Assembly (NCBI GenBank): GCA_903952205.1
Contig: CAJBEZ010000063.1
Span: 1-64,000, forward strand
DNA length: 64,000 nt
Source of the DNA: an uncultured Desulfomonile sp.
Lineage (GTDB): Bacteria; Desulfobacterota; Desulfomonilia; Desulfomonilales; Desulfomonilaceae
Direction of reading: 5' to 3'
A program made the position numbers and the translations under genes. Below the pieces are notes generated by a model, which was given only the letters and a program-made list of their open reading frames with translations, had not been told where the DNA came from and made no database searches. Numbering within the stretch: the first letter of the stretch is position 1; every line of letters starts with the position of its first letter. This document shows positions 31,905-43,162 of the stretch, one piece after another.

Positions 31905-32503
31905 TAGTCAGCCTGTCCTAATTGATACCTGGTAAAACGCCCCACAGTGATGTTCTCTCCAAGTTGGGCAATCTTTTCCTTGATCAATTCGCCGACTGTC
32001 TTGGAGTCTTCCTTTACAAAGGGCTGATCAAGCAAACATGTCTCAGAGTAAAATTTCTTGAGCTTTCCTTCAGCTATCTTGTCAAGCATCTTGTCCGGCT
32101 TGCCTGCTTCTTTGGCTTGCTGCATATAGATCTCTTTTTCCTTGATCACAATATCTTCGGGGACATCTGCGGCCCCAATCCACCTTGGTGCGCTTGCGGC
32201 GATTTGCATGCAAAGATCTTTCAACAGACCGGCGAACTGTTCTGTTTTGGCTACAAAATCACTTTCACAATTAAGCTCTAGAAGAACACCTATCTTTCCA
32301 TTCATGTGAATATAAGAACCCACTCTGCCTTCTGATGTGGCCCTTCCTTCCCTCTTTGCGGCTTTTAGAGCCCCCTTTGTTCGGAGGTAGTCAATGGCCT
32401 TTTGCATATCGCCTTCCGTCTCAGCCAAAGCTTTTTTACAATCCATCAATCCCAAGCCGGTCTTTTCCCTCAATTCCTTTACCAAACTCGCTGATATCTC
32501 CAT
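31904..32503 (-). CDS. tsf: Elongation factor Ts (short form)
   Basis: A 199-residue EF-Ts. The signature LREKTGLGLMDCKKALAETE is in the N-terminal UBA-like domain, and INMHMNG-like and ELNCESDFVAKTEQF motifs follow. At 199 residues it is the short form lacking one of the two core subdomains, as in many deltaproteobacteria and Thermus, versus about 280 in E. coli. It recycles EF-Tu.GDP. The spacing of 244 bases to rpsB is larger than elsewhere in the cluster. Confidence 0.96.
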   Translation of the reverse strand: MEISASLVKELREKTGLGLMDCKKALAETEGDMQKAIDYLRTKGALKAAKREGRATSEGRVGSYIHMNGKIGVLLELNCESDFVAKTEQFAGLLKDLCMQIAASAPRWIGAADVPEDIVIKEKEIYMQQAKEAGKPDKMLDKIAEGKLKKFYSETCLLDQPFVKEDSKTVGELIKEKIAQLGENITVGRFTRYQLGQAD

Positions 32504-39840: not shown

Positions 39841-40434
39841 ATGGTAAAATTCAATGGAATAAACCATCTTGCGATGGTAACTGGGGATATGGACGCCACA
39901 ATCAGGTACTGGCGTGATCTTCTCGGATTTAGACTGATTGCGGGTCTTGGCGCGCCCGGATATCGACATTATTTTTTTGAGATTTCACCAACCGACCTTA
40001 TCGCTTTCTTTGAATGGGATGGGGCTCAACCAGCGATAGAGAAGGACCACGGGGCGCCAGTGAAAGGCCCTGTCATATTCGACCATGTTTCGTTTGGGGT
40101 TGATGGTCTTAAGGACCTGTGGGAATTACGCGACAAGTTGTCGGCATCTGGATTTTGGGTATCGGAAATGGTGGATCATGGATTCATTTACTCGATTTAC
40201 TCCTTCGACCCAAACAACATTCCAGTAGAATTCAGCTTCTCCGTAAAAGGGGAACAGATTAGACAATACCCTGCTATGGCGGACAAACGCCCCTCAAACG
40301 TGACGATCGAGGGCTCTGAACCACAACTTGGTAAGTGGCCCGACGCGATTCCTTCCAGCCAGGACGATCGGAACATTTTTCCGGGCTCTGGTAGCGAGCT
40401 TTTTCATGGCATCAAGGATAAACTTAACGGCTGA
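39841..40434 (+). CDS. VOC-superfamily (glyoxalase-like) protein
   Basis: A 197-residue vicinal-oxygen-chelate protein. The first beta-alpha-beta unit is INHLAMVTGDMDATIRYWRD and the second begins VIFDHVSFGVDGLKD; metal-ligand candidates are His in NHLAM and DHVSF and the Glu in PVEFSF. The start at 39841 follows AGGAG by 8 bases. The C-terminal tail of about 60 residues is Pro/Ser-rich. Reaction unknown; relatives include lyases, dioxygenases and epimerases. It converges with the DUF362 gene, overlapping it by 11 bases at the 3' ends. Confidence 0.8.
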   Translation: MVKFNGINHLAMVTGDMDATIRYWRDLLGFRLIAGLGAPGYRHYFFEISPTDLIAFFEWDGAQPAIEKDHGAPVKGPVIFDHVSFGVDGLKDLWELRDKLSASGFWVSEMVDHGFIYSIYSFDPNNIPVEFSFSVKGEQIRQYPAMADKRPSNVTIEGSEPQLGKWPDAIPSSQDDRNIFPGSGSELFHGIKDKLNG

Positions 40435-41581
40435 CCTTTGACAGCAACTTTCCCAAATACGGTTCCACAATCATGACTGCGTCGTTGTCACAAAGTTCAT
40501 GGCAACAGAAACACGATATGCAGACTCGAGTGTCAATCTTCATCATGCCATTTTTGCTCTTGATCGCCCCCGGAGGGCAATGATTCATACAAATTCCACA
40601 GCTCTTGCAGATTGACGCGTCGATCGCAGGCTTAGTGATAACATGATTTTCGAGAAACCTCCTGAAAGGGTTCCAGTAAGAGAGATTCCAAGACATAGTC
40701 ATAGACTTGGGCCGTTCAAAATCAGTGATTGGAAATCCACCCAACTCGTCCCCCACAACAGCGATCCCCTCCGGATCGGCGACACCAAGTCCAAGATCAC
40801 TCCCGACAACGCAGGTTTTAACAAGATCTACTGGGAAATCTAGAAGAGACGCTATCACTGAATCGAGAGCAACTGCGTCCTGTCCCGCCGCCACTATACC
40901 AATGCGCCTAGGTTTACCGCTATTTGGACCATTCCCCTCCATCCCAAAGACACCATCAACTATCGAAACCACAGGACTTATCTGCTCGTAAATCTGAACC
41001 AGAACTGTAGCAAAACTATCAATATTTTTCCCCGCGCGTAAGTGCCAGGATGCCTTGTCCGTCCCTATGACGGTTCCAAACAAGTTTTTTACAGCTAGAG
41101 TCAAGCCCATCTGAGAATGAGTCTTAATTTTTGGAAGGTTGACAACCTTGTCAAATTCAAACACCTCTTCGGCGAGTTCCAGCCTTCTGAACAATCTGCT
41201 GTTCAGGCAATCTAAGCTCCGTTTCCGTATAAAAGGACATGGTTTAACATTAAGTCTTTTCATAAAGTTGTCGTATCCGGACTTGGATAGGACCCGGGCA
41301 AGGTTTCCCAGAGGAGGGCTGTCGCCCAGAGACAGTTGGGCTCCATGGTCGACCAACAACTCTGCAACAGCTTCAACAAAGGTGGGATGAGTAACGATAG
41401 CCTGACCAGGATTTGAAGACCTCAGCAAATTGGGCTTCAAAAGAACTTTGTCCGATCGATTGATCATAGACTTTAGGCCGCCTAAATCTTCCATGCAATT
41501 GTTTACAATCTCCTTTAAGCCGGCCAATTCATATTCTGAAGATTTCCTGACGCTCACCAACGACTTCATCTTAATCCTCAA
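40424..41581 (-). CDS. DUF362 protein with C-terminal ferredoxin domain
   Basis: A 385-residue protein. Residues 1 to about 300 are a DUF362 domain (LLKPNLLRS, NLPKIKTHSQMGLTLAVKN, SIVDGVFGMEGNGP). The C-terminus has two [4Fe-4S] motifs, CKSCGICMNHCPPGA and CISCFCCHELCDNDA. The combination is common in anaerobes with no agreed function; a redox-active or metal-cofactor role is inferred. The start may be the first Met or the inner Met at residue 5. It is divergent from panC. Confidence 0.8.
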   Translation of the reverse strand: MRIKMKSLVSVRKSSEYELAGLKEIVNNCMEDLGGLKSMINRSDKVLLKPNLLRSSNPGQAIVTHPTFVEAVAELLVDHGAQLSLGDSPPLGNLARVLSKSGYDNFMKRLNVKPCPFIRKRSLDCLNSRLFRRLELAEEVFEFDKVVNLPKIKTHSQMGLTLAVKNLFGTVIGTDKASWHLRAGKNIDSFATVLVQIYEQISPVVSIVDGVFGMEGNGPNSGKPRRIGIVAAGQDAVALDSVIASLLDFPVDLVKTCVVGSDLGLGVADPEGIAVVGDELGGFPITDFERPKSMTMSWNLSYWNPFRRFLENHVITKPAIDASICKSCGICMNHCPPGAIKSKNGMMKIDTRVCISCFCCHELCDNDAVMIVEPYLGKLLSKVSR

Positions 41582-41684: not shown

Positions 41685-41712
41685 TTGACCTGGCAATCGA
41701 TATCATTATAAT
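41685..41712 (+). promoter_or_regulatory. Strong sigma-70 promoter of panC leader
   Basis: TTGACC at 41685-41690 and a perfect TATAAT at 41707-41712 are separated by 16 bases. The start of transcription should be near 41719. It lies about 155 bases before panC, and a leader with its own terminator lies between. Confidence 0.75.
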
Positions 41713-41718
41713 AGTTAC

Positions 41719-41847
41719 AATAGGTCTGGAGTTTCTTGGAAACCCGGAACATTACAATGTGAATCAAAATCCGCTTGGATCCATGTGACCGGGACGGAAG
41801 GAACGATGATTAGCGCTTTACACCTTCCTTCGGGAAGGTTTTTTTTT
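41719..41847 (+). ncRNA. Structured leader RNA (attenuator) ahead of panCD
   Basis: The leader of about 130 bases runs from the predicted transcript start to a UUCG-loop terminator. It contains a hairpin TCTGG-A-GTTTC-TTG-GAAAC-CCGGA (about 41725-41748; unpaired A on the left arm), then ACATT/AATGT and ATCC/GGAT hairpins. GGAAGG at 41796-41801 can pair with CCTTCC at 41823-41828, which is the left arm of the terminator, so terminator and antiterminator exclude each other. This is the layout of a riboswitch or attenuator controlling panC-panD. The published pan RNA motif (leaders of panB/C/D, including in deltaproteobacteria, with bulged As) is a candidate class. A separate small RNA is the alternative. 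Confidence 0.6.
41822..41847 (+). terminator. UUCG-loop intrinsic terminator before panC
   Basis: ACCTTCC and GGAAGGT enclose a TTCG tetraloop and are followed by nine T (41839-41847). It sits only 17 bases before the panC start codon, so it must be overcome for panC expression from the upstream promoter. Confidence 0.85.
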
Positions 41848-41864
41848 GGCTGGGTCAAGGCTCA

Positions 41865-42707
41865 ATGGAAATAATAACATCGGTCGAAGAAATGAGCGAG
41901 TGGAGCAGGGAGTGCGCTCTGAATCTCAAGTCGCTCGGCTTGGTTCCCACCATGGGATATTTACACGAAGGACATCTAAGTCTTGTTAGGAAGGCCATAT
42001 CAGAAAATGATCGTGTCGTCGCAAGTATCTTCGTAAACCCCACCCAATTTGGGAGAAACGAGGACTTCGGTGTTTATCCCCGTGACCCGGGCGGCGATTG
42101 CGCCAAGTTGGAGGCATCTGGTGTCGATGCGCTCTTCACACCCGACGCAGAGACAATGTATGGCGCCGGTTACGAAACATTTGTAGAGGTTCAACATCTA
42201 TCTCTTCCCTTGTGTGGACAGACCAGACCCGACCATTTCAGAGGAGTAGCCACTGTTGTGCTCAAGCTCTTCAATATTATAGAACCGACCAGGGCCTATT
42301 TTGGTTGTAAAGACTATCAACAACTCCAAGTCATAAAGAAAATGGTCAGGGACCTTAATGTCAGGACAGAAGTGATAGGATGTCCAACCGTTCGTGAGCC
42401 TGATGGACTTGCGATGAGTTCCAGGAATTCATATCTGTCTCCGTCTCAAAGAAAACGGGCTGTTTGCCTTTATGAGGGCCTCAGAAAAGCCCAGGCACTC
42501 TTTATGACTCATGAAACCGACGTAGAGAAATACATCAGAGTTATAGCGGAGACCATTTCCATCGAATCTGGAACCAATCCGGAATACATTAGGCTGGTTG
42601 ATCCGGACACATTAAGGGATCTCTCCGCCGTGCACGGGCCGGCCTTGGCTATCTTGGCCGTTAGGATCGGACAAACCCGGCTAATAGACAATGCTCTGAT
42701 GAGTTGA
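41865..42707 (+). CDS. panC: Pantothenate synthetase
   Basis: A 280-residue PanC. Motifs are LVPTMGYLHEGHLSLV (HIGH-like), FVNPTQFGRNEDFGVYPRD, the PGR-like region QTRPDHFRGVATVV, FGCKDYQQLQVIKKM, and the KMSKS-like AMSSRNSYLSPSQR. It joins D-pantoate and beta-alanine with ATP hydrolysis to AMP, a step to coenzyme A. Ribosome binding site AAGG precedes the ATG. panD, which makes the beta-alanine, follows 98 bases downstream, so pantothenate branches are together; panB is absent. Confidence 0.96.
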   Translation: MEIITSVEEMSEWSRECALNLKSLGLVPTMGYLHEGHLSLVRKAISENDRVVASIFVNPTQFGRNEDFGVYPRDPGGDCAKLEASGVDALFTPDAETMYGAGYETFVEVQHLSLPLCGQTRPDHFRGVATVVLKLFNIIEPTRAYFGCKDYQQLQVIKKMVRDLNVRTEVIGCPTVREPDGLAMSSRNSYLSPSQRKRAVCLYEGLRKAQALFMTHETDVEKYIRVIAETISIESGTNPEYIRLVDPDTLRDLSAVHGPALAILAVRIGQTRLIDNALMS

Positions 42708-42805: not shown

Positions 42806-43162
42806 ATGCAAAGGACCATGCTGAAGTCAAAAATACACAGAGTTAAGGTTACCGGCGCCTGCGTTGATTACGAGGGGAGCGTGACGATAGATTCAAAGCT
42901 CCTAGAGGCTTCGGACATCCTCGAATATGAGCAGGTTCACATCTATAATGTTTCCAATGGGGAACGGTTTGCAACATACGTAATCGAAGGGGAACCGAAT
43001 TCAGGTGTGATCTGCCTTAACGGCGCGGCGGCCCGAAAAGTTTCAGTAAATGATCTGGTGATTATATGTTCTTACGTGATTCTGGATGATGCGAAGTGCA
43101 AAAACCACAAGTCAAAGAATGTGTTCGTGGACTTGGAGAACCGAATAGAGCGAATTCACTGA
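42806..43162 (+). CDS. panD: Aspartate 1-decarboxylase (pyruvoyl)
   Basis: A 118-residue PanD, usual length. The self-cleavage site lies in YEGSVTID, where cutting between Gly and Ser makes the pyruvoyl cofactor on the alpha chain. YNVSNGERFATYVIEGE and LNGAAARKVSVNDLVIICSY follow. It decarboxylates L-aspartate to beta-alanine, the co-substrate of PanC. Co-transcribed with panC by position. Confidence 0.95.
   Translation: MQRTMLKSKIHRVKVTGACVDYEGSVTIDSKLLEASDILEYEQVHIYNVSNGERFATYVIEGEPNSGVICLNGAAARKVSVNDLVIICSYVILDDAKCKNHKSKNVFVDLENRIERIH

Follow-up and report, generated by a model that had tools for sequence, protein, structure and literature searches.

The leader upstream of panC and panD in the window (the whole 64,000-nucleotide stretch of DNA analysed here) can securely be identified as a genuine and fairly typical pan RNA, which adds a member to an orphan class already known. 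The second pan hairpin (P2) and an antiterminator are predicted to be mutually exclusive in pan leaders from three phyla, and the tandem pan RNA probably attenuates transcription as a form of feedback repression, responding to a signal past pantothenate.

The panCD leader and the pan RNA family

The leader of ~145 nt runs from the promoter at 41685-41712 and lies 5' of panC-panD. A first-pass annotation had described a near-consensus promoter and a structured leader before panC, with a UUCG terminator 17 bases 5' of the gene, and both were located as described; the 17 nt separate the terminator end from the panC ATG at 41865. The same promoter type was found at the same position in the compared leaders of the window's family. 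The features are as follows.

41685-41712, + strand: sigma-70-type promoter, TTGACC-16-TATAAT, 11/12 consensus bases
41724-41750, + strand: P1, first pan hairpin, bulged A41730 and A41748 or A41749, with 5 bp between
41771-41797, + strand: P2, second pan hairpin, bulged A41779 and A41794
41796-41801, + strand: GGAAGG, P2 base and conserved tail, predicted antiterminator 5' half
41823-41828, + strand: CCTTCC, predicted antiterminator 3' half and terminator left arm, the two pairings being mutually exclusive
41822-41847, + strand: intrinsic terminator with a 7-bp stem and UUCG loop (ACCTTCC-TTCG-GGAAGGT, 41822-41839) and T8 (41840-41847), kept in 18/18 family leaders
41865-42707, + strand: panC, pantoate--beta-alanine ligase (TIGR00018, 320.5 bits)
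42806-43162, + strand: panD, aspartate 1-decarboxylase (TIGR00223, 143 bits)

The two TIGR profiles confirmed the annotated identity of the controlled genes as panCD. The pan motif is expected upstream of panB, panC or panD, and here panC-panD lie downstream. The divergent neighbour of the leader (40424-41581, minus strand) encodes a protein of 385 aa, part of which is Npun_F2552-like and whose end resembles ferredoxin; no link to pantothenate was seen.

The first-pass annotation had suggested that the leader belongs to the pan motif or is related to it, to be checked with the Rfam pan model and by covariation in the stems of related leaders, and both checks bore this out. A match to the pan family RF01749 spanned the whole of P1-P2 with 28.9 bits (E 0.0063 in 601 nt), compared with the curated cut-off of 36.2 bits, which is a search threshold and not a biological feature. 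RF01749 matched in 18/18 genomes of the window's family and exceeded the cut-off in eight of them, reaching up to 48.2 bits; Rfam thresholds alone miss the window and half its family. A covariance model of P2 (R1), built solely from 62 sequences outside the window's family, was searched against the whole 4.78 Mb genome and gave the window site 40.3 bits (E 5e-8), the next best match scoring 13.8 bits. Because of the family matches, the R1 model and the covariation, the sub-threshold RF01749 score is taken as a sign of distance, not of absence.

An R1 match at 32412-32460 on the minus strand, inside a coding sequence reading as elongation factor Ts, was rejected as chance, and no second pan RNA was found in the window's genome. 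The panB gene of this genome (G000:C46:27636-28412, L232) lies away from panCD and carries no pan RNA, unlike the panB genes of two related genera (L236/L081 and L240/L076). A weak RF01749 match in a congener (L089) lacked the P2 core and was likewise assigned to chance, as were DNA-pattern matches in Streptomyces, Bradyrhizobium and others, which lacked a pan gene, had a P2 with imperfections and were excluded. Matches to Phe_leader, PrrF and PhotoRC-I in the leader were far under the cut-off.

Both P1 and P2 carry two bulged As, 5 bp apart, in 18/18 family leaders. The bulged A annotated earlier in the first hairpin is therefore present, although not on one side only, since each strand of both hairpins has one. 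Alignment of the 18 family leaders revealed seven pairs with double-sided changes, six in P1 and one in the terminator, and the covariation across P1, P2 and the terminator was equalled by none of 500 shuffles. P2 was nearly invariant in the family, with no double-sided change and hence no covariation signal within the 18 leaders, but it covaried in the wider set of 62 outside sequences. Both P1 and P2 can thus be taken to form. The P2 core is near two-fold symmetric, with CYUGGA on one strand and CYGRGA on the other. The stability of the leader fold was no better than chance (z -0.38; 64 of 200 shuffles equally stable) and was therefore dropped as evidence.

Competition between P2 and the terminator left arm

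The P2 3' strand and its tail are predicted to pair either with the P2 5' strand or with the terminator left arm, and P2 base and antiterminator share the GG at 41796-41797. The earlier reading of GGAAGG and CCTTCC as an antiterminator, and of the leader as an attenuator with two exclusive states, had the positions right, and it gained from the relatives, in which the pairing is conserved and covaries across phyla with compensatory changes. When the window RNA was folded at increasing lengths, the antiterminator probability was uneven (0.75 to 41828, 0.36 at 41832 and 0.95 at 41834), and at full length, with the right arm transcribed, the terminator reached 0.97.

About 270 pan relatives were compared in total, in leader sets that were picked partly by the P2 pattern and with p-values that ignore kinship. 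Among 162 distinct pan loci, mostly from Desulfobacterota and gathered by Rfam hits and the P2 pattern, 154 had a terminator candidate within 170 nt, and an antiterminator of at least 5 bp was found in 131 of these 154. The terminator left arm usually pairs with the P2 3' strand and tail, as CGGAAGG does with CCTTCTG, or GACGGAAGG with CCTTTCGTC. For consensus tails, a helix score of at least 13 was reached by 85/94 strong pan terminators (90%), compared with 17/109 other terminators (16%) taken from these loci and from the window. Both strands of P2 co-vary at its base with the terminator arm, and the arm is often altered alongside the P2 base or tail (L008/L009/L036, L010, L140, L011, L045, L046 and L202). 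The pooled test over all 52 variant tails was weaker (p 0.06, ignoring kinship), because many variants such as GGGAGG can still pair with the usual arm through G-U, and a good helix is missing from some leaders.

In a further set of 114 pan leaders from Bacillota and Chloroflexota, 107 had a terminator, and the helices were longer than with shuffled arms (kinship ignored). This set added the pairing classes CAGAGGGAT/ATCCTTCTG and GTGAAGG/CCTTCAC, while some leaders with variant tails, notably those of Chloroflexota ECF operons, had antiterminators of 3-4 bp.

The window's family has the tandem form. In about 60 of the 162 leaders the promoter ends 3-20 nt before P2, a count based on loose -10 boxes, in which a few sites are spurious (L080 and L084, for example, are members of the tandem family); under a strict promoter scan, 18 leaders had a promoter abutting P2. 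Since P1 cannot be transcribed from such a position, one hairpin should be enough for the switch. Two leaders (L180 and L194) have no terminator, and their GGAAGG tail, located 2-10 nt before the panB start, looks like a Shine-Dalgarno sequence, so that in these two leaders translation could be subject to this competition.

As the antiterminator uses the GG of the P2 base, stabilisation of P2 should favour termination, and as the two are exclusive, a stable P2 should mean OFF. We infer that the switch is of the OFF type and serves feedback. At low signal, the terminator left arm, on emerging, would capture the GGAAGG tail and open the P2 base, and with the antiterminator formed, RNA polymerase would read on to panC and panD. 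At high signal, a bound ligand or protein would lock P2 with its bulged As and leave the left arm free, whereupon the terminator would form and panCD would be off. An expression platform exclusive with the conserved domain, as a riboswitch would need, appears to be present.

Genes under pan RNA control, the signal and its reader

Most pan RNA targets were panB, panC, panD and panG-type (DUF2520) genes. A PanS-type transporter lies downstream of the pan RNA in L213, L224, L291, L293 and L297; the PanS profile NF047939 matched L213 and L224 with 296 bits, under its cut-off of 400. In L343 the pan RNA precedes a yhdT-panF pair (TIGR02119, fragment, 275 bits), PanT-like ECF components with coaX follow in L104, L333 and L339, and in L105 an ECF module precedes a PanT-like protein, coaX and coaBC. 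Here, 'PanT-like' denotes an ECF S-component domain together with operon context, the profile not being PanT-specific. In L314 and L328 an OPT transporter is followed by a type II pantothenate kinase. One genome (G415) contains three pan RNAs, situated before panCD, a PanT-like gene and a PanS-like gene.

Several loci carried other genes. A BioY-family ECF component (PF02632) heads the pan RNA operon with the PanT-like gene and coaX in L104 and L333, which suggests that a B5-related vitamer may be the cargo of some BioY-like proteins. In three Chloroflexota loci (L274, L276 and L279), the gene of a family S58 (DmpA-like) peptidase, possibly a source of beta-alanine, separates the pan RNA from panG. 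In L019 and L206 the first gene after the pan RNA is aldehyde ferredoxin oxidoreductase-like (putative family), and in L206 panB, panC and panD come after it. A pan RNA with a terminator also precedes a 78-aa protein of unknown kind in L298, and an amidohydrolase and BirA in L323.

Because the targets include genes for uptake, type II/III pantothenate kinase and coaBC, the signal probably lies beyond pantothenate. Late CoA intermediates and CoA are the only metabolites downstream of all pan RNA target genes, and judged by the controlled genes the signal would be a metabolite after pantothenate, probably and most simply the CoA pool. Pantothenate kinases of types II and III are without CoA feedback (PMC12570885), a gap that feedback at the RNA level would fill. 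The type III enzyme (CoaX) was present in 38/38 pan-bearing Bacillota genomes, and type I was found above the cut-off in two and not in the other 36; these counts cover pan-bearing Bacillota only and express consistency with a CoA signal, not enrichment. In the window's genome coaX is present, and no type I match exceeded the cut-off.

A plain terminator with a complement nearby by chance, and no regulation, would fit the leader stability not above shuffles and the 16% of other terminators that reach the same helix score. However, all 18 family genomes keep the element, it extends over three phyla and it shows compensatory changes, which makes this reading highly improbable. Ribosome- or tRNA-mediated attenuation, by a leader peptide or a T-box, has a similar terminator/antiterminator layout, but the promoter abutting P2 in many relatives leaves no room for it, the 18 family leaders had no ORF with a ribosome site in common, and Rfam gave no T-box match in the leader. 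The missing shared ORF refutes the leader peptide as far as the sequence tells, and the probability of this kind of attenuation as a whole is close to nil.

The other readings keep the same attenuator and differ in the sensor or its signal. The pan RNA could be a riboswitch for CoA or a late intermediate such as 4'-phosphopantetheine, a tentative proposal that we think rather unlikely; if true, it would be among the smallest aptamers, working even as one 33-nt hairpin, and would give feedback to bacteria whose type II/III pantothenate kinases escape CoA inhibition. A riboswitch that binds an early metabolite directly (pantoate, beta-alanine or pantothenate) would suit the predominance of panB, panC, panD and panG among the targets and the assignment of PanS as a pantoate-type transporter (PMC6593275), but coaX, type II pantothenate kinase and coaBC are controlled as well, and there would be little sense in repressing these by their own substrate or by a precursor, so that we regard such a riboswitch as improbable. 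We give evenly balanced weight to the idea that the hairpins are no aptamer and bind a possibly dimeric protein reporting CoA/pantothenate status, a rival for the sensor only and not for the switch. A dimeric protein was proposed from the tandem arrangement in the 2010 description (PMC2864571), the stem is very small and simple, one hairpin suffices in many leaders, and the pseudo-symmetric P2 core is suited to a dimer; with CoaX in every pan-bearing Bacillota genome and in the window's genome, a CoA-pathway enzyme could be the binder. On the other hand, no regulator gene was consistently linked to pan RNA in the loci read, and near-invariant paired positions over three phyla equally fit a ligand pocket. 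As a single 33-nt hairpin suffices in many relatives, we lean slightly towards a protein, and not the RNA directly, as the reader of the signal.

Comparison with the 2010 description and known riboswitches

The portion of the 2010 description consulted (Weinberg et al., PMC2864571) presents tandem bulged-A hairpins and pan genes and guesses at a dimeric protein, and gives no ligand, mechanism or expression platform; the later papers found list the pan motif before panB operons and go no further. The window copy shares with RF01749 the tandem hairpins, the two conserved bulged As in each and the position before panC-panD, and differs in falling under the Rfam cut-off. Compared with that portion of the 2010 description, an antiterminator and terminator are proposed here for this copy and for the class, together with targets beyond panB, panC and panD. 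In the literature searched, which was mostly open-access and did not extend to the 2010 supplements, we found no pan RNA ligand, antiterminator, or transporter or kinase targets; earlier reports may exist. As of a 2022 review (PMC10043782), there was no validated CoA riboswitch.

The class thus gains a specific switching mechanism with a polarity, in which stable P2 should mean off, and its regulon now takes in uptake, kinase and coaBC genes as well as those for synthesis. Mechanism and regulon jointly narrow down where to look for the signal, to the CoA side of the pathway, and yield specific experiments. New beyond expectation are the class-wide mechanism and the regulon; the identity of the sensor and the ligand is offered as an interpretation.

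The NAD+-I (nadA motif) riboswitch is similar in its two similar tandem bulged stem-loops, its vitamin/coenzyme genes and its OFF logic (PMC10043782). It has another sequence and acts on the ribosome site as described (PMC10043782), whereas the pan RNA also works as one hairpin. Ligand and binding are proven for NAD+-I, as is direct binding for the FMN and TPP riboswitches, whose aptamers are much larger, whereas for pan RNA direct binding is a proposal. In the FMN and TPP systems, one RNA governs how a B vitamin is made, taken up and activated, with repression once the coenzyme form is abundant. The pan regulon resembles theirs in bringing together synthesis, uptake and activation of one B vitamin.
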